The notes under the pieces are model-generated. The model was not told where the DNA came from, made no database searches, and saw only the letters and a program-made list of their open reading frames with translations. Of a stretch of DNA of 64,000 nt, positions 1 through 8,811 are shown piece after piece. This DNA is from Devosia sp. 66-22 (lineage in GTDB: Bacteria > Pseudomonadota > Alphaproteobacteria > Rhizobiales > Devosiaceae), in NCBI GenBank assembly GCA_001899065.1, contig MKUZ01000008.1, positions 62,001-126,000 on the forward strand, read 5' to 3'. How positions within the stretch are numbered: position 1 is the first letter of the stretch; each line of letters begins with the position of its first letter. Made by a program: the position numbers and the translations under genes.

Positions 1-315
1 ATCCTGGAAGATCATGCTGATCTCGGCGCCGCGGATGGAGCGCATCGGCTTGCCGTTGCGCTCGAGCTTTTCGATGTGAATGTCGCCGCGCTCGCTGTGA
101 TAGGTGATCGAGCCCTCCTCGATGCGGGAGAGGCGGGGCAGCAGTTGCATGATGGCCGCGGCGGTCACCGACTTGCCGCAACCGCTCTCGCCCACCACGC
201 ACAGTGTCTTGCCCTTCTTGATGTCGAAGGAGACGCCGTTCACCGCCTTGTTGCAGCGCTGGTTGGTGTAGAAGTAGGTCTTGAGGTTGCGGACGCTGAG
301 CGCGACGTCGGACAT
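1..315 (-). CDS. Peptide-type ABC transporter ATP-binding protein (OppD/DppD family), N-terminal part
   Basis: The first 105 residues are present; the gene runs off the left edge. The Walker A motif GESGCGKS is at residues 42-49 and the Q-loop (MIFQD) lies at the cut end. This is the nucleotide-binding subunit that drives import through the permeases encoded just upstream. The ATG at 313-315 follows the permease stop after 3 bp, so translation is probably coupled. A second ATPase (DppF type) is expected outside the window. The family is clear; the substrate cannot be read from this subunit. Confidence 0.92.
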   Translation of the reverse strand, partial: MSDVALSVRNLKTYFYTNQRCNKAVNGVSFDIKKGKTLCVVGESGCGKSVTAAAIMQLLPRLSRIEEGSITYHSERGDIHIEKLERNGKPMRSIRGAEISMIFQD

Positions 316-318
316 GGG

Positions 319-1254
319 TCAGCCCTGCTGGGTCGGGTCGGAGGCGTCGCGCAGACCGTCGCCGATGAAGTTCACGCTGAGCACGAACAGCGAAATGAAG
401 GTGCCGACCGGCAGCCAGAGCCACCAGTTCCGCTGCAGCACGGTGAGGTCCTGCGCGACGTTGAGGATGTTGCCCCAGGTCGGAATGGCCAGCGGCACGC
501 CGAGGCCGAGAAAGCTGAGGCCGGCTTCCTGCAGGATGAAAGCCGCCGTCGACAGAGTGATGTTGACCATCACCGGACCGAGCGCGTTGGGCAGCATGTG
601 CTTGAAGCTGATCAGCGCGCGGTTGAGGCCGAAGCTGCGCAGCGCCTGCACATATTCTTCCTCGCGCAGCGACAGCATCTGGGCGCGCACGAGGCGATAG
701 ATGCCGCACCAGCCGCCCAGGATGAAGATCGCCATGATGTTGAACAGCGACTGCCCGAGGATGGAGACCAGCACGAGCACCAGGATGATCTCGGGGAAGG
801 CCATGATGGCTTCCGAGACACGCATCGCCACCGCATCGACCCAGCCGCCCACATAGCCGGCATAGCAGCCGATGATCACGCCGATCAGGGCCGAGACAAG
901 CGCGCTGCCAAGGCCGACCAGGATCGAGATACGGCCACCATAGAGCACGCGCGCGAACACGTCGCGACCGGTTTTGTCGGTACCGAACCAGTGCTCCCAG
1001 GAGGGCGGCTTGTTGATGGCCCTGAGGTTGATCTCCGTCGGGTTCCACGGGGTCAGCAGCGGCGCCAGGATGGAGGCGAGCAGGATGATCGTAAAGATCA
1101 CAAGACCGACAACCGCGAGACGGTTGTTGAGGAATTTGCGAATGAAGCGACTGCCGGTCGCCGCTTTCAGCTGGCCGGCCTCTTCCATCCGGCGGAGCTG
1201 GTCGAACTGCCGGTCGAGGCGGCTGCGTCGGCTGACGATATCGATGAGGGCCAA
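319..1254 (-). CDS. Peptide-type ABC transporter permease (DppC/OppC family)
   Basis: This inner-membrane permease has 311 residues. It has an N-terminal helix followed by the family's periplasmic segment with HWFGTDKTGRDVF, then several hydrophobic helices and an EAA-type loop (EEYVQALRSFG...), and it ends in the usual GDGLRDASDPT. I chose the TTG at 1252-1254, preceded by GGGGGAGA; the open frame extends further upstream, but that part overlaps dppB and does not look like this family. Only 2 bp separate it from the dppB stop. It should pair with the dppB-type permease to form the channel. Confidence 0.92.
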   Translation of the reverse strand: MALIDIVSRRSRLDRQFDQLRRMEEAGQLKAATGSRFIRKFLNNRLAVVGLVIFTIILLASILAPLLTPWNPTEINLRAINKPPSWEHWFGTDKTGRDVFARVLYGGRISILVGLGSALVSALIGVIIGCYAGYVGGWVDAVAMRVSEAIMAFPEIILVLVLVSILGQSLFNIMAIFILGGWCGIYRLVRAQMLSLREEEYVQALRSFGLNRALISFKHMLPNALGPVMVNITLSTAAFILQEAGLSFLGLGVPLAIPTWGNILNVAQDLTVLQRNWWLWLPVGTFISLFVLSVNFIGDGLRDASDPTQQG

Positions 1255-1256
1255 GG

Positions 1257-2216
1257 CTATTCTCCCCCCAGCCGGACGCGCGGATCGATGATCGCGGTGA
1301 GCACGTCGATGATGAGGCTCACGACGAGCACGAGGATGACCGACAGCAGGGCGATGGTCATCACCGTGGGGAGGTCCTTGTTGCGTACCGAGAGGACGAA
1401 CAGATGGCCGAGCCCCGGCCACTGGAAGACCTGCTCGACGATCACCGAGCCGCCGATGAGGATGGGCAGGCGGAAGCCGATCAGCACGACGACGGGCGTC
1501 AGCGCGACGCGAAAGCCATGCAGAAGGTTGACGCGCCATTCCGGCAGGCCCTTGGAACGGGCTGTCTTGATGAACTCCTTGCTCAGCGTGTCGAGCATGG
1601 CGGAGCGCGCGTAGCGCATCACACCCGCCGTCATCATGATCGACAGCACCAGCGCGGGCATGACGAGATTGGGGATGTGGTCCCAATAGGTCGTGTAGCT
1701 CGGCAGCAGCCGGCCACCGACCGGGAGCCAGCCGAGATTGATGGCGAAGACGAGGATGGCGACGAGACCGAAGAAGAACTCGGGGATGGAGACGCCGATC
1801 ATGCCGGCGACGGTGAGGATATTGTCGGTGGCCGAGCCGCGCTTGAGCGCGCTCACCGTGCCGAGGATCGCGCCGAAAATGCTGGAGAGGACGAGCGCGA
1901 CGACCGAAAGTTCGAGTGTCGCGGGCAGGCGCTCCATGAGGATGCGCGAGATGGGAACGCCGCCCGTCAGGGTGCGGCCGAAATTGCCCTGCAGGACACC
2001 GCTGAACCAGATCCAGTAGCGGACCACCAGCGGCGCATCGAGGCCAAGCGCGCGGCGGAGTTCTTCGATGCGCTCGGGGTCGACCGTCTGCACCGGATTG
2101 AGCATGCGCGTGACCGCGTCACCGGGCGACAGGTCGAGGGCCAGATAGATAAGGAAGCTGATGCCGATCGCCATCGGAACGATAATCAACAGACGTCGGG
2201 CAATGTAGGTCAGCAT
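1257..2216 (-). CDS. Peptide-type ABC transporter permease (DppB/OppB family)
   Basis: At 319 residues this has the normal DppB length. The N-terminal helix and SPGD (LSPGDAV) match the family, helices follow, and the cytoplasmic EAA loop (EFIKTARSKGLPEWRV) is typical. The C-terminus carries the conserved IDPRVRLGGE-like end. It sits 74 bp downstream of the binding-protein gene and is tightly linked to the second permease, giving the order binding protein, B, C, D. The start ATG is at 2214-2216. Confidence 0.93.
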   Translation of the reverse strand: MLTYIARRLLIIVPMAIGISFLIYLALDLSPGDAVTRMLNPVQTVDPERIEELRRALGLDAPLVVRYWIWFSGVLQGNFGRTLTGGVPISRILMERLPATLELSVVALVLSSIFGAILGTVSALKRGSATDNILTVAGMIGVSIPEFFFGLVAILVFAINLGWLPVGGRLLPSYTTYWDHIPNLVMPALVLSIMMTAGVMRYARSAMLDTLSKEFIKTARSKGLPEWRVNLLHGFRVALTPVVVLIGFRLPILIGGSVIVEQVFQWPGLGHLFVLSVRNKDLPTVMTIALLSVILVLVVSLIIDVLTAIIDPRVRLGGE

Positions 2217-2290: not shown

Positions 2291-3913
2291 TTACTTGTCG
2301 TACTGGTTGAACCAGACCATGCGTGTGTAGGGGATATCCAACGGCGTCATGCGCATGAAGTCCAGAGCCTTGATGGCCTCGATGTCGCTGACGACCTTGG
2401 TGACCGCGAAGTCGATGCGGTGGGCCGAAGCGTTCTTGACCATGTTCACGTCGCCGTCCGAGCTGGCCCAGGCGATGATCTGGTCGATCTTGGGCTTGCC
2501 TTCGTAGTAGTCGTCGAACGGCACGAAGGACGAGAAGTCGCCGAACTTGGCTTCCTCAACCTTGAACGGGCCAGAGCCGATCGGCTTCTGCCAGAACTCG
2601 GCCTGCTGGACGAGCGTCGGGTCGACACCTTCGAAGTACTTCATGGGGAACGGGCCCCACTGGGTGAAGGCAATCAGCGTGTTGGCGTTCGGCTTGGTGA
2701 ACTTGATCGTCACCTTGTTGCCGTCGGACGTAATGCCCGAGACGGTTTCCGCCGTGCCGGCCACATACTCGGCCGCGCCCTCGATCGAGTTGAACACGCT
2801 AGCGATCACGCCGTGCAGGTTCGGGGTCTTGAGCGAGAAGATCAGGCTCTTGGTCACGTCATCGACGGTGATGGGTTCGCCATCGTGCCACTTGGTGCCG
2901 TCACGCATGGTGAAGGTCAACGTCAGCCCGTCGTCCGACATCTCGTAGCTTTCGGCGAGATCGCCGCCGGTGATGCCATCGAGGAAGGGCTTGGAGCCCA
3001 GCATGTGCGCCCAGATGAACTTGTTGCCGGCCCAAAGGCCCAGGTTCACCCAAGGCTGCTCGAAATAGTCGAGCGGCGCGCCGTTGGTGTACAGGATCGC
3101 CTTGCCATCGGCGTCGGGCGTGACGGTCCAGTTGTGCACGTTCCAGTCATAGTTGAACTGGTCGTTGCCATAGGGCTCGCCGTGCCGATCGAGGCGGTTG
3201 CTCTCAACCGACTGCAGCTGCTGGTAGTAGAGCGGCAGGGTGAGGACGTTGGCGTTAATGTACTCGTCGATCTTCATCAACGTCGCCTTGGCGACTTCCG
3301 GATCGGTAGCGGTGTTGGAGTCGGCGATCAGCGCGTCGAGCTCGGGCGAGCCGGGGAAGCCGTCAGCACTGGCTTTGCCGGTGGCATAGTCGTTGAAGTA
3401 CTCCTGCATCACCATGGCGGCACGCGCGCCATAGGCCATGTCCCAAGTGACGACGGACTTGCCCTTGGGGTCTTCCGGGATGGAGTTGAGCGTCTTGGCG
3501 ACGTCGCCGACGATCAGATTGTAGGTGAGCGTGATGCCCACCTCCGCAAGCTGGGCCTGCAGCACCGCCATCAGGTCGGCGGTGATCTGGTCGTCATAGT
3601 AGTAGACCATGTTGAGCGCGCGGCTCGAATCCCAGCCAGCTTCGGCGAGCAGCGCCTTGGCCTTCTCGGGATCGTAGGCGTATTTGTCGAGGTTCGGACT
3701 CTTGAACGGGCCGTTCGGCAGCAGGCCGTCGGCGGGCACCGCGAAGCCGGCGAACACCGATTCCGTGATCAGGTTGCGGTCGATGGCGTAGGCGATGGCC
3801 TGACGGACGCGGACGTCCGAGAGCGGGTTGCCGTTGAGAGCCTGGGCTTGCACCACACTGCTTATGCCGGTCTGCAGAAGCAGAGCGACTGCTGCGGCCT
3901 TAAAAATCCTCAT
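2291..3913 (-). CDS. Solute-binding protein, SBP_bac_5 type, apparently circularly permuted
   Basis: This is an exported ABC binding protein of 540 residues. A signal peptide covers about 1-25, with likely cleavage after AQA. The order of the two family halves is reversed. Residues 28-265 match the part that normally starts near residue 290 in DppA-like proteins (NPLSDVRVRQAIAYAIDR, then DPEKAKALLAEAGW). Residues 268-540 match the normal mature N-terminal part (YEMSDDGLTLTFTMRDG at 323-339, TKWHDGEP at 340-347, GSGPFKVEE later). The protein ends in WFNQYDK, the segment that normally precedes NPLSDVRVRQ, so the new termini meet exactly. The old ends are joined around TPDADGKAILYTNGAP (265-280). 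The frame is intact, AGGAG precedes the ATG, and the permease genes follow. The family is certain; the permutation is read from motif order. Confidence 0.93.
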   Translation of the reverse strand: MRIFKAAAVALLLQTGISSVVQAQALNGNPLSDVRVRQAIAYAIDRNLITESVFAGFAVPADGLLPNGPFKSPNLDKYAYDPEKAKALLAEAGWDSSRALNMVYYYDDQITADLMAVLQAQLAEVGITLTYNLIVGDVAKTLNSIPEDPKGKSVVTWDMAYGARAAMVMQEYFNDYATGKASADGFPGSPELDALIADSNTATDPEVAKATLMKIDEYINANVLTLPLYYQQLQSVESNRLDRHGEPYGNDQFNYDWNVHNWTVTPDADGKAILYTNGAPLDYFEQPWVNLGLWAGNKFIWAHMLGSKPFLDGITGGDLAESYEMSDDGLTLTFTMRDGTKWHDGEPITVDDVTKSLIFSLKTPNLHGVIASVFNSIEGAAEYVAGTAETVSGITSDGNKVTIKFTKPNANTLIAFTQWGPFPMKYFEGVDPTLVQQAEFWQKPIGSGPFKVEEAKFGDFSSFVPFDDYYEGKPKIDQIIAWASSDGDVNMVKNASAHRIDFAVTKVVSDIEAIKALDFMRMTPLDIPYTRMVWFNQYDK

Positions 3914-4007
3914 TCACGTCTCCTGGGTTGCTAGTGCGCCGATATGGACATGAGAGCTTGTGTCTGGAATCCCCGTTGAGCTTCAGTCCCCTCCACTGCG
4001 ATGACGT

Positions 4008-4054: not shown

Positions 4055-4729
4055 TCACAGAATTCCGTGCCGATCGAAGAGGTCGACCAGGCTGTGTCCC
4101 TTGCGGATTTCGTCGCGAACGACGTTCTCCGCTGCAACCTTCTCCAGCGCCTTGCCGAGCGCCTCGCGCATAACCGCCTTGGGCACGATTACCGTGCCAT
4201 CCACGTCGCCGAAAACGAGGTCGCCGCTTTCGACGCGCACGCCGGCGATCTCGCCGGGGACATCGTACAGCATCAACTTGCCGCGATACTTGGTGTCCAT
4301 CGGATTGGTGCCCCCCGAATAGACCGGGAATCTGAGGTCGCGAATGCGGCTGGTGTCGCGCACGCTGCCATCGGTCAGGCAGCCGGCGGCGCCCAGGTAG
4401 CGGGAGCGCTCCGACAGCAGCTCGCCCCAGGGTGAAGTGCGCAGGATACCGTGGCAGCACAGCACCGCGACCTCGTCACGCTTCAGGCTGTCGACGAGCG
4501 CGATCTCGTGTTCGTAGACCTTGGTGTTCTCGTCATCGTGATAGAGCGGCATGTAGATGCCGACGCGGGCGAGCCCGCACAGCACGAGGGCAGGGTCGAC
4601 GCCCTTGATGCCGGGCGCCAGCACCTGATGGTGATAGCCGAAAGTGTCGAGAGAATCCGCAATGGCAGCGGAGTTGAGACGCGCGCGGCATTCCTGCACC
4701 AGAGCTGCGATGTCGGCGTATGCGTCCAA
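4055..4729 (-). CDS. RraA-like aldolase family protein
   Basis: This 224-residue protein has the RraA / HMG-aldolase fold signature: WGELLSERSRYLGAAGCLTD, then DGSVRD (the Arg-Asp pair that binds the pyruvate enolate and metal), FPVYSGGTNP, and GDVDGTVIVP near the C-terminus. Catalytic family members cleave 4-hydroxy-2-oxoacids to pyruvate plus an oxoacid or aldehyde. In a catabolic cluster next to a transporter an aldolase role is likelier than RNase E inhibition. The start is a TTG (4727-4729) preceded by AAGGAA. A cluster operator lies 29 bp upstream. Confidence 0.85.
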   Translation of the reverse strand: MDAYADIAALVQECRARLNSAAIADSLDTFGYHHQVLAPGIKGVDPALVLCGLARVGIYMPLYHDDENTKVYEHEIALVDSLKRDEVAVLCCHGILRTSPWGELLSERSRYLGAAGCLTDGSVRDTSRIRDLRFPVYSGGTNPMDTKYRGKLMLYDVPGEIAGVRVESGDLVFGDVDGTVIVPKAVMREALGKALEKVAAENVVRDEIRKGHSLVDLFDRHGIL

Positions 4730-4933: not shown

Positions 4934-5722
4934 CTAGACGGCGAGGGACTTCGGATCATACCTGTCCGCGGAACCTGTCGGCTTCCAGCCGAGCAGTTCC
5001 TTGGCATGGCTCGTATCGCGCCAGCGGCGCGAGTTCTCCGATATCGCGTCGAAGATATCGAAGCGGATACTGTCGGGCGCCCCAAGGCACTTGTCCACCA
5101 TCTGCACGGCGTCGGCCTGAGCGAGGTAGCCGGGGAAGTGTCGCACCATTTCCGGCTTGTCGCTAGCTAGAACCGCCCCGAGGCGAATACACAATACCGA
5201 CATGCCGTACTTGTCGGAGAACAGGCGGCCGGTGTTCTCGCCGAACAGCTTTCCCACGCCATAGAAGCTGTCGGGGCGCGGCGGATCGAGATAGTCGAGC
5301 ATCTTCGCCCCGGCGGGCAGGCGATCGTACTCATTGGCGGCGAGGGCGCCATAGGGCGATCCCTCGAACCATTCGTAGCCGCACATGGTGCTGCCGGTGC
5401 TCATGAACACCACGCGCTTGACGCCCGCTTCCTGCGCGGCGCGATACATCGCGAGCGTGCCGCCGATGGTGATCTCCATCACACGGTCCCAGTCGTCATA
5501 GTCCTGCGTCTCGGCGGCCAGATGCAACACCATGTCCATGCCCTTGGAGGCACGGCGGAGCGCGTCGATGTCGCTGATGTCGGCCTGGGTGTGGGGGATC
5601 CCTGCCACCGGACGGCGGCTGAGGCCGCTGAACTCGTATCTGTCGGAGAGATCGCGGATCACGAGGCCGCCGATCAAGCCGCTTGCCCCGGTGATCAACA
5701 CCTTTGGTCTCATCGCCGTCAC
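4934..5722 (-). CDS. NAD-dependent epimerase/dehydratase (extended SDR), copy 1
   Basis: Extended SDR of 262 residues. Near the N-terminus is the Rossmann motif TGASGLIGG; LHLAAET follows, then the catalytic YGVGK. It probably acts on a sugar or nucleotide sugar as NAD-linked dehydrogenase or epimerase. I chose GTG at 5720-5722 because its product (MTAMRPKVLITGASG) lines up with the paralogue at 6915-7697 (MTAKPKVLVTGASG); an ATG lies 9 bp inside. The two copies look well over half identical. The gene is divergent from a BNR gene and has its own operator (site B). Confidence 0.9.
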   Translation of the reverse strand: MTAMRPKVLITGASGLIGGLVIRDLSDRYEFSGLSRRPVAGIPHTQADISDIDALRRASKGMDMVLHLAAETQDYDDWDRVMEITIGGTLAMYRAAQEAGVKRVVFMSTGSTMCGYEWFEGSPYGALAANEYDRLPAGAKMLDYLDPPRPDSFYGVGKLFGENTGRLFSDKYGMSVLCIRLGAVLASDKPEMVRHFPGYLAQADAVQMVDKCLGAPDSIRFDIFDAISENSRRWRDTSHAKELLGWKPTGSADRYDPKSLAV

Positions 5723-5835: not shown

Positions 5836-6918
5836 GTGAAGCGTCAGTCGTCGTTCGCCTTGTATGCAAACCCGGCGCCGCTGCTGGTGAGCCGGCAGGC
5901 GCTGTTTCCGGGGATCATCCGTCTGGCGGATTGGAGGCTGCTGGCGCTGTTCTCGATCGGCCAGGCGTTTGACGCGGCCGACATGCGCAGCTTCGTGAGC
6001 AGCAGCGACGATGACGGCCGCACCTGGTCGCCGCCGCGGCGGCTGAACGCGCACGAGGCTGTGCCGGAGGAGCAGCAGAGCTTCAAGCCGATCCAGCTGC
6101 GCGATGGGCGACTGCTCGCCACCGGCTACGTGTTCGAGCGGCCCGACGCGCTGCAGCCGATCGTCGATCCGGTGACGTCGGCTTTGCCCCGGCTGGTGCC
6201 CAAGATGTCAGTGTCCGGTGATGGCGGTGCGAGCTGGTCCGTGCCGGAAGCCATCCGGTTCGAGGGGGAGCCGCCGCTGGAAATGTCAGGTCCGGCGACG
6301 CAATTGCCGAGCGGCCGCATCATTGCGGCGACGTCGCCGTTCCATCTCGAGCGAACCGGGCACAGCGGGTGGATCGTCGCCAGCGACGATGGCGGGCGGC
6401 ACTGGTTCAAGCTGTCGGAGTTCTTTTGCGCGCCGGGCGGCGACATCCATGCCTGGGAGTGCCGCCTGGTGGCGTGGGGCGAGGGTAGGGTGGCCGTGCT
6501 CTGGTGGGCCTATGACCATACGCGCGGCGTCAACCTCAACAATCACATTGCCTTCTCCACGGATGGCGGCGAAACGTTCGGGCCGGCCGTGGATACGGGT
6601 GTTCCCGGCCAGTCCTCAAGCCTGATCCATCTCGAGGATGAGGTGCTGCTGACCATCCATGCGCAGCGCGAGCAGGACGCCGGGCTCGTGGTGCGGCGCG
6701 TCGATGTCAGCGGCGGCCGCTTCGCCGTGACCGAAGAGCTGGAACTGTTCGCCGACCGCGCGATGGGCAGCACGACCGCCGACATGAAGCAGCAGTTCGG
6801 CGATCTCAAATTCGGCCAGCCATCGCTGCTCAGGCTCAGCCACACCGAGGTCCTGGCCTATTGCTGGGCTTTCGAGGCCCATCAGTACATCATCAAGGCG
6901 TTCCGGCTGTCGCTCTAG
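5836..6918 (+). CDS. Asp-box (BNR, sialidase-fold) protein 1
   Basis: This 360-residue six-bladed propeller has Asp-box repeats such as SSDDDGRTW, SGDGGASW, ASDDGGRHW and STDGGETF. No signal peptide is visible, so it is predicted cytoplasmic. The first-strand arginine motif of true sialidases (F/Y-R-I-P) is absent; this position reads LFPGIIRL. Hence it may act on a sugar without being a sialidase. AGGAGG lies 8 bp before the GTG start (5836-5838). It is a clear paralogue of the BNR protein at 22267-23343. Its stop codon overlaps that of epimerase 2 in a shared CTAG. Confidence 0.85.
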   Translation: MKRQSSFALYANPAPLLVSRQALFPGIIRLADWRLLALFSIGQAFDAADMRSFVSSSDDDGRTWSPPRRLNAHEAVPEEQQSFKPIQLRDGRLLATGYVFERPDALQPIVDPVTSALPRLVPKMSVSGDGGASWSVPEAIRFEGEPPLEMSGPATQLPSGRIIAATSPFHLERTGHSGWIVASDDGGRHWFKLSEFFCAPGGDIHAWECRLVAWGEGRVAVLWWAYDHTRGVNLNNHIAFSTDGGETFGPAVDTGVPGQSSSLIHLEDEVLLTIHAQREQDAGLVVRRVDVSGGRFAVTEELELFADRAMGSTTADMKQQFGDLKFGQPSLLRLSHTEVLAYCWAFEAHQYIIKAFRLSL

Positions 6919-7697
6919 CCGAGCGTGTCCGGATCGAAGGTATCGGAAGAGTCCATCGGTTCCCAGCCGAGCACGCGGCGCGAGTGGTCGATGTCGCGCC
7001 AGCGCCGCGCGTTGTTCGAGACGGCGTGGAAGATGTCGTAGCGCAGGTGCATCGGCGCGCTCAGCGTCTTGTCGATGATGCTCACGAGGTCGCGGTGCGA
7101 GAGGTAGCCGGGCAATTCGCGCACGATCGTCGGCTTGTCGTCGGGCAGGACCGCGCCGACGCGGATCACGAGGACCGACATGCCGTATCTGTCCGAAAAG
7201 AGCCGGCCGGCATGTTCGCCGAACAGCTTGCCGACGCTGTAGAAATCGGCCGGGCGGGCGGGGTCTGTGTGGAGGATCATGCGCGCTTCGGCCGGCATGC
7301 GCTGCAGCTTGTTGTCGGCCAGTTGCACGTAGACCGACGCCGGATCGAACTGATAGCCCAGCATGGTGCTGCCGGCGCTGGCCAGGACGACGCGCTTGAC
7401 GCCCGCCTCCTGTGCCGCACGGAGCACGTTGAGCGTTCCGCCCATGGTGCTGCCTACAACCTTGTCCCAGTCGTCGTAGTCCTGCGTCTCGGCCGCGAGG
7501 TGCAGCACCATGTCCGTTCCGGCGCAGGCGGCGCGCACAGCATCGGCGTCAGTGATGCTGGCCTGGGTGTAGGGGATGCCGTCGAGCGGCCGGCGGCTCA
7601 GTCCGCTGAACGCATAGCGGTCGCCGAGGCGCGTGATCACGAGCTGACCGATGAGGCCGCTCGCGCCGGTGACAAGAACCTTCGGCTTGGCTGTCAT
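6915..7697 (-). CDS. NAD-dependent epimerase/dehydratase (extended SDR), copy 2
   Basis: This is a 260-residue paralogue of the 4934-5722 protein, with TGASGLIGQ, LHLAAETQDYDDWDKV and YSVGK. The open frame reaches 7844, but the ATG at 7695-7697 aligns with copy 1 and has AAGG upstream. The two copies flank BNR protein 1, which suggests a tandem duplication that kept or gained the gene between them. Each copy has its own operator. Substrates may differ: residues after GSTM diverge (CGYEWFEGSP versus LGYQFDPAS). Confidence 0.9.
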   Translation of the reverse strand: MTAKPKVLVTGASGLIGQLVITRLGDRYAFSGLSRRPLDGIPYTQASITDADAVRAACAGTDMVLHLAAETQDYDDWDKVVGSTMGGTLNVLRAAQEAGVKRVVLASAGSTMLGYQFDPASVYVQLADNKLQRMPAEARMILHTDPARPADFYSVGKLFGEHAGRLFSDRYGMSVLVIRVGAVLPDDKPTIVRELPGYLSHRDLVSIIDKTLSAPMHLRYDIFHAVSNNARRWRDIDHSRRVLGWEPMDSSDTFDPDTLG

Positions 7698-7734
7698 TTG
7701 GCGTAGCCTTGCGATTGACAGGCTTAGATATGCC

Positions 7735-7748
7735 GTTAACATAACAAC
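7735..7748. promoter_or_regulatory. Cluster operator, site C
   Basis: GTTAACATAACAAC matches GTTA-N-YATR-N-TAAC with one mismatch. It lies 38 bp before epimerase 2 and 62 bp before the divergent six-gene plus-strand operon that starts at 7810. Confidence 0.7.
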
Positions 7749-7809
7749 ATAGTCACTTGCGGAGTCAATCGACGTTCCAGTCGCTGTTCCGCTGATGCGG
7801 GGCGGTTGG

Positions 7810-8811
7810 GTGAAGCGGGTTCTCATCGTCGGCAGCGGGGGCATCGGCCGCCGTCACCTTAAGGGATACGGCCTCACCGGCAGAGTCGAACTCGCCATCG
7901 TCGAACCCGATGCGGGGCGGCGCGCCGAGGCCGCCGAATTGTTCGGCATCACCGAGGCTTACACCGACATCGCCGAAGCAAATCTCGCAAGCTTCGACCT
8001 TGCGGTGATCTGCGCGCCGGCGAACTTCCACGTACAGCTGATCCGTCGCTGCGCGGCGGCCAAGCTGTCATTCATGGTCGAAAAGCCGCTAAGCGTCACG
8101 ATGGAGGACGTCGATGTGGCGCTGGCGGAGGTCGCGGCGTCGGGCGTCGAGGCGCGGGTCGGCTATGTGCGCCGCGTCGCCGAGGAGGTCGTGGCGCTAC
8201 GCGAGAAGATCGTCGCCGGCAAGATCGGCCGGCTGCGGCTCGCCTATCTCAACTCGTCGCAGGAATTTCCGAAGTACCGGCCCGACTTCCAGCGGACCTA
8301 CTACGCCCGGCCCGAAATGGGTGGCGGCGCCATTCTCGATGCGGCGAGCCATCTGTTCGACATGCTGATCTGGATCATGGGCAAGCCCACCGATGTGTCC
8401 TGCATATTCGACCGGCTGGTGCTGGAGGGCACCAATGTCGAAGACACCTGCCTCGTCACCATCCGGTTCCAGAGCGGGGCAATGGCGAATGTCACCATCA
8501 ACCAGTTCCAGAAGCCCAACATCTCGACCTTCGAGTTCATCGGCGACGCGGGCAATCTGATGATCGAGCACTCGACGCTGAAATTCGCCGACGACGACAG
8601 CGGAGCGTGGAAGGAACAACGCAACTATATGGACGGGCTGGTGCCGACCGAGGCGCATCAGGCGCGCTTCCGGTTGCAGGCCGACGCGATGCTCGACGCG
8701 ATCGAGGGCAAGCCGTGCTGGCTCGCAACGCTCGATGATGCGCGCGACAATCTTCGCGTGGCGCTCGCTGCGAAACAGTCGTGGACCGAAAAGCGGATCG
8801 TCGCGCTATGA
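7810..8811 (+). CDS. Gfo/Idh/MocA-family oxidoreductase 1
   Basis: NAD(P)-dependent sugar dehydrogenase type, 333 residues. The N-terminal Rossmann motif is GSGGIGRRH, the catalytic-lysine motif is EKPLS, and the C-terminal domain has GGGAILDAASHLFDML, which carries the Asp/His pair. I prefer the GTG at 7810 because the product starts MKRVLIVGSGG and a GGGGCGG-like site precedes it; an in-frame ATG lies at 7795. It is the first gene of a plus-strand operon and overlaps the next gene by ATGA. Confidence 0.9.
   Translation: MKRVLIVGSGGIGRRHLKGYGLTGRVELAIVEPDAGRRAEAAELFGITEAYTDIAEANLASFDLAVICAPANFHVQLIRRCAAAKLSFMVEKPLSVTMEDVDVALAEVAASGVEARVGYVRRVAEEVVALREKIVAGKIGRLRLAYLNSSQEFPKYRPDFQRTYYARPEMGGGAILDAASHLFDMLIWIMGKPTDVSCIFDRLVLEGTNVEDTCLVTIRFQSGAMANVTINQFQKPNISTFEFIGDAGNLMIEHSTLKFADDDSGAWKEQRNYMDGLVPTEAHQARFRLQADAMLDAIEGKPCWLATLDDARDNLRVALAAKQSWTEKRIVAL

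Follow-up and report, generated by a model that had tools for sequence, protein, structure and literature searches.

A conserved family of alphaproteobacterial cluster C solute-binding proteins with circularly permuted lobe order

The gene at positions 2291–3913 on the minus strand of the window (the whole stretch of 64,000 nucleotides from Devosia sp. 66-22 that was analysed) encodes, as judged from sequence comparison, a solute-binding protein (SBP) of the SBP_bac_5 family (cluster C) in which a real circular permutation has swapped the two halves, so that the old C-terminal half (residues 29–265) precedes the old N-terminal half (residues 266–540). The protein represents an established, conserved family and not a single odd gene. 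It is explained best, and with good confidence, as the binding protein of a Dpp-type ABC importer whose lobes were swapped by one old permutation and whose ligand is likely a sialic acid or another nonulosonic acid. The original prediction, in which the strand of the gene was absent, had proposed the permutation and missed both that the family is established and that it is probably tied to sialate-type uptake.

Layout of the gene and evidence for the permutation

The open reading frame, defined by its translation, its Pfam match and the rotated alignment, starts with ATG and comprises 540 codons plus a stop codon. An AGGAG motif resembling a ribosome-binding site is found at 3920–3924, six bases before the ATG, and residues 1–26 (3836–3913), ending in QAQA, look by eye like a signal peptide. 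The intact frame, the signal peptide, the ribosome site and the permease genes that follow had all been predicted, and each was found, the last as DppB-type and DppC-type permeases downstream of the SBP. These features and all segments described below lie on the minus strand.

The mature part opens with the old C-terminal lobe (residues 29–228; 3230–3829), which begins with NPLSDVRVRQAIAYAIDR and was delimited by alignments with an approximate boundary near residue 228. It is followed by the old C-terminal tail (residues 229–262; 3128–3229), the counterpart of which, according to the joint alignment with linear SBPs, presumably returns to the N-lobe in ordinary members. The decapeptide TVTPDADGKA (residues 263–272; 3098–3127) joins the old C-terminus to the old mature N-terminus; no second signal peptide is left at this joint in the joint alignment, and its length is variable, being about five residues shorter at locus L045. 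The remainder is the old N-terminal half (residues 273–540; 2294–3097), placed by rotated and PDB alignments and closed by a C-terminal strand with the conserved motif (D/N)I(P/R)YTR (residues 526–540; 2294–2338 in the alignments). In ordinary members the equivalent of this strand continues into the NPLxDVRVRQ helix. The segments on which the permutation had originally been recognized were correctly positioned, PLSDVRVRQAIAYAIDRNLI occupying residues 30–49, DDGLTLTFTMRDGTKWHDG residues 327–345 and WFNQYDK the C-terminal end.

SBP_bac_5 (PF00496) was the sole Pfam family above its cut-off (4.6e-64; 217.3 bits against 32.4), and it matched in two stretches, the best of which covers residues 317–537 and corresponds to the start of the profile (positions 4–208 of 368). 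In a search of PDB chains, residues 318–529 matched DppA (1dpe) at 49–266 and residues 14–102 matched it at 259–348. Misalignment is a risk with such proteins, which appear to sequence tools as two partial matches. For a test across the family, an alignment was built of 18 permuted proteins picked for spread from the 34 loci read; it includes one of the 24 small-genome loci, leaves out the split or partial genes L042, L043 and L044, and contains L037 in trimmed form. A profile of these 18 proteins matched linear SBPs in the permuted register in all 24 distinct cases, with the weakest of the linear proteins found only as short scattered pieces.

The reverse test used a profile of the 24 linear SBPs (the set after two duplicate loci had been dropped), which was run on the permuted proteins both in their native order and rotated at residue 266. 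The best single-stretch score rose on rotation in every one of the 18 proteins, about twofold, from a mean of 121.9 to 238.2 bits; for the window protein it rose from 123.6 to 241.8 bits, with model positions 87–516 of 526 covered. Once rotated, 16 of the 18 were matched as one stretch, and the other two (L030 and L034) as a main stretch and a small one. The 24 linear SBPs used as a control, which are the same proteins that trained the model, lost on rotation (mean 570.6 to 291.3). A collinear alignment to an ordinary SBP family, named at the outset as evidence that would speak against a permutation, is ruled out by these scores. The protein does not follow the canonical order of N-half and C-half and is a permuted variant rather than an ordinary SBP_bac_5 member; the two-stretch matches to Pfam and DppA, together with the gain of the rotated order over linear homologues, uphold the original proposal. 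In the joint alignment the seam relative to linear relatives closes without lost residues, ...IPYTRMVWFNQYDK being followed directly by NGNPLSDVRVRQA...

Distribution and origin of the family

Matches to the permuted SBP beyond 1e-60 were obtained in nine of 19 genomes of the genus and in 26 of 136 genomes of the family, 24 of the latter being near-full-length and in one frame; the other two are a partial match (G029) and one split over two contig ends (G025). Near-full-length copies in the permuted order were also found in 24 of 110 genomes of a small-genome family (about 1–1.6 Mb per genome) and in four of 295 genomes of the Thalassovita family (genome G520). In the class, two of 385 genomes gave matches, that of Devosia sp. 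66-22 included, and this was the only one of 398 recovered by a phylum scan at 1e-70. Ten named contigs, of which four belong to genomes already counted, carry the permuted SBP under titles referring to Devosia, Hyphomicrobiales/Rhizobiales, Paracoccaceae, Rhodobacteraceae, Thalassovita autumnalis and one unclassified bacterium. The total amounts to 58 distinct genomes with the permuted order, 56 of them near-full-length, from large searches that scored the best few candidates per genome and may have missed some. No plasmid match was obtained at 1e-20, and none of 58 pattern matches in viral contigs proved to be a relative.

In a few genomes the genes are irregular: the permuted SBP of G029 (L095:9550–10933) lies in two overlapping frames, that of G057 (L096:9484–11061) has no signal peptide in frame, and G057 also has its NanR-like gene in two frames, all of which may reflect assembly indels or decay.

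The 18 aligned permuted proteins are 42–93% identical. In a tree with the 24 linear SBPs they all lie on one side of a 100/100 branch with a long stem (2.17; midpoint root, with several long linear branches), and this grouping fits one origin of the permutation. Selection on the gene is seen in dN/dS values of 0.098, 0.095, 0.187 and 0.226 against four relatives. The identities of the SBP over 15 loci are correlated more closely with those of the permease (r 0.89) than with those of the aldolase (r 0.64); L095 was left out of this comparison by choice, and L089, L103 and L104 because the automatic call did not include one of the genes required.

Two other origins of the unusual order have to be weighed. 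The misjoining of two pieces of ordinary SBP genes by faulty assembly or annotation has a negligible probability: nothing at this locus was seen to speak for it, the same order recurs at 42–93% identity in independent genomes, including the closed, single-contig genomes G004 and G117, and so many independent assemblies exclude the local error that the original prediction had considered at the junctions. That the halves were fused from two different SBP genes, instead of descending from one rearranged parent, is unlikely, although the scores of the N-lobe and the C-lobe against the 24 linear SBPs are uncorrelated (Spearman 0.08, p 0.71), as they are against the 19 linear SBPs that were not picked by similarity to the N-half (0.16, p 0.50). 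This test is without power, however, since distant linear proteins reach a mean of only 0.13 with themselves, against 0.07 for the permuted ones, and a seam that closes without missing residues is simply explained by one parent.

The descent from one parent could have proceeded by tandem duplication followed by loss of the outer halves. No duplication–deletion intermediate was found, and no linear sister of the permuted family among 289 genomes of the class, where the best linear N-half is 38% identical. In 289 genomes the next closest permease is 40% identical and lies beside an ordinary linear SBP, and in 231 plasmid records with permeases all identities are under 60%, the best among the matches listed being about 40%.

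Operon context and probable ligand

The permuted SBP heads an operon of SBP, permease, permease, ATPase and ATPase, with an aldolase of the DHDPS/NanA-like type nearby, in 19 of 21 loci, the remaining two being cut by contig ends; it is thus linked to Dpp-type permeases and ATPases as for cluster C. A NanR-like regulator gene is present in 14 of the 21. The window contains a DppB-type permease (BPD_transp_1; 1257–2216, minus strand), identified by its reading frame, domain match and locus comparison, a DppC-type permease (319–1239, minus strand), the start of which is not fixed since the longest reading frame extends to 1686 and homology ends near 1239, and the first DppD/F-type ATPase (1–315, minus strand), which continues to the left of the window (G000:C8 61311–62315). 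Directly upstream of the SBP lies an RraA-like gene (4055–4729, minus strand), one cluster of which is represented in six of 19 loci compared. The enzymes around the Devosia-side operon comprise, besides RraA-like proteins, an FMN dehydrogenase, a BNR-repeat protein, a Gfo/Idh-like protein and an SDR.

Several further genes were noted at these loci. A related pair of NAD-epimerase-like genes (4934–5722 and 6915–7844, minus strand) flanks the BNR-repeat, sialidase-like gene (5836–6918, plus strand). A 300-residue protein without any Pfam or NCBIfam match (L089:8435–9334; G000:C8 58435–59334) represents an unnamed family clustered in seven of 19 operon loci. At L097:14642–15814 a NanM-type mutarotase adjoins the permuted SBP and also matches, below the cut-off, TIGR03548, a cyclically-permuted mutarotase. 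On a Paracoccaceae contig (L102:14750–17613) two sulfatase-like genes, both below cut-offs, follow the operon and are perhaps meant for sulfated glycans.

Genes of sialate catabolism are found at the permuted-SBP loci of the Thalassovita side and of the small-genome family, and weakly on the Devosia side. The NCBIfam cut-off for NanA (281) was exceeded by six of nine aldolases tested, namely those from Thalassovita, Paracoccaceae, Rhodobacteraceae, two contigs titled Hyphomicrobiales and the small-genome G296; the Devosia-side aldolases scored 252, 264 and 258, and the stricter TIGR00683 (382) was reached by none of the aldolases tested. NanE (3/3) and NanM (2/2) were above their cut-offs, NanK-like (4/4) and NanR-like (3/3) proteins below theirs. 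Somewhere in the genome, NanE was found in ten of 13 searched genomes with the permuted gene and in three there was none; Devosia sp. 66-22 carries it on another contig (C24).

The permuted SBP of the Thalassovita side is probably a sialate binder, since it stands beside NanE, NanK-like and NanM genes. By the same kind of gene-neighbourhood evidence, sialate-type uptake appears likely for the Thalassovita side and plausible for the Devosia side, where the substrate is less certain, since the aldolase is the only nan-type gene left there and its score does not reach the NanA cut-off. A different ligand on the Devosia side, such as another sugar acid or an opine-like compound handled by the surrounding Gfo/Idh, SDR, HpaI-like and DHDPS-family enzymes, with the link to nan genes confined to the Thalassovita side, is a serious possibility if a somewhat doubtful one: it would suit Devosia-side clusters that carry other enzymes and have no adjacent NanE, NanK or NanM, as well as the low score of their aldolase, but both sides share the operon core with the DHDPS/NanA-like aldolase, the window holds the sialidase-like BNR gene (5836–6918), and NanE is encoded elsewhere in the same genome. 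Overall, the most likely ligand would be sialic acid or one of the related nonulosonic acids.

Predicted hinge topology and relation to known binding proteins

According to the alignments, the break in the chain would lie directly behind the strand crossing from the N-lobe to the C-lobe, at about K274/P275 of DppA, and the old termini would be joined by the short linker at residues 263–272. With a cut after the first crossing, the C-lobe (residues 29–228) and the N-lobe (residues 229–540), the latter in two parts in ordinary members, would each form an uninterrupted segment, and free ends would take the place of one of the two covalent hinge crossings. The conserved (D/N)I(P/R)YTR strand at the C-terminus would then sit at the hinge, and the protein has probably kept both the Venus-flytrap motion and the hand-over of its ligand to the permeases. 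The AlphaFold model, which bears on the three-domain flytrap fold of cluster C, was weak (pLDDT 68.5, pTM 0.61) and became worse without the signal peptide (pLDDT 61.1, pTM 0.46). With this weak model, the 50 PDB matches listed by Foldseek were all cluster C-type binding proteins by title, aligned over 187–257 columns each with low TM-scores (0.17–0.33); about half of the chain was aligned at a time, as would be expected of a permuted chain.

DppA and other cluster C proteins share with the permuted SBP the Pfam family, homology of both halves and Dpp-type permeases and ATPases; the permuted SBP differs in its swapped lobe order, its apparently continuous N-lobe and its chain ends, which would lie at the hinge. 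Binding proteins with a natural permutation were known before. TpMglB-2 (Tp0684), a glucose-binding protein that belongs to cluster B and has relatives among treponemes and Gram-positive bacteria, is described as a natural, functional and conserved circular permutation for which a 'Type Ic / Cluster Bc' was proposed (PMC4990184). It belongs to another fold class, and there three strands of the N-lobe were relocated to the end, with the gain of a fourth crossing (PMC4990184), whereas the permuted SBP appears to be cut between the lobes, with one crossing lost. Membership in Cluster Bc was considered and rejected, PF00496 being the only family above the Pfam cut-off. SatA from Haemophilus ducreyi (PDB 5z99, 5yyb), for which the two-stranded hinge between the lobes of ordinary cluster C proteins is described, is like the permuted SBP a protein of the SBP_bac_5 type with a probable sialate role (PMC11364026). 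The permuted-family profile matches SatA at 2.4e-17; SatA is, however, not permuted, and by sequence it is not the nearest protein, standing near the end among the 60 chains listed. In the literature searched, largely without subscription papers, no natural circular permutation in cluster C was found, as originally supposed, and no permuted sialate SBP. With a natural permutation known from cluster B and none found in cluster C in these sources, the permuted SBP appears to be new as a cluster C case.

That the (D/N)I(P/R)YTR strand takes part in ligand binding, or acts as a latch, is speculative. It is a tentative and rather doubtful idea that an ancient permutation un-interleaved the flytrap into two continuous lobes with a single crossing and ends at the hinge, the YTR strand serving as a free latch for opening, capture and release, and that several alphaproteobacterial groups have retained this single-hinge design for uptake of the sialate type.

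Binding proteins are two-lobed machines whose opening and closing are thought to be shaped by how many crossings link the lobes. With a natural and conserved family whose lobes are swapped, the importance of hinge topology could be tested; the family also provides a case for studying how circular permutation becomes fixed in evolution and a ready scaffold for sensors with both ends at what would be the moving hinge. It is, in addition, a lead to what is probably a sialate importer of alphaproteobacteria from soil and marine habitats.
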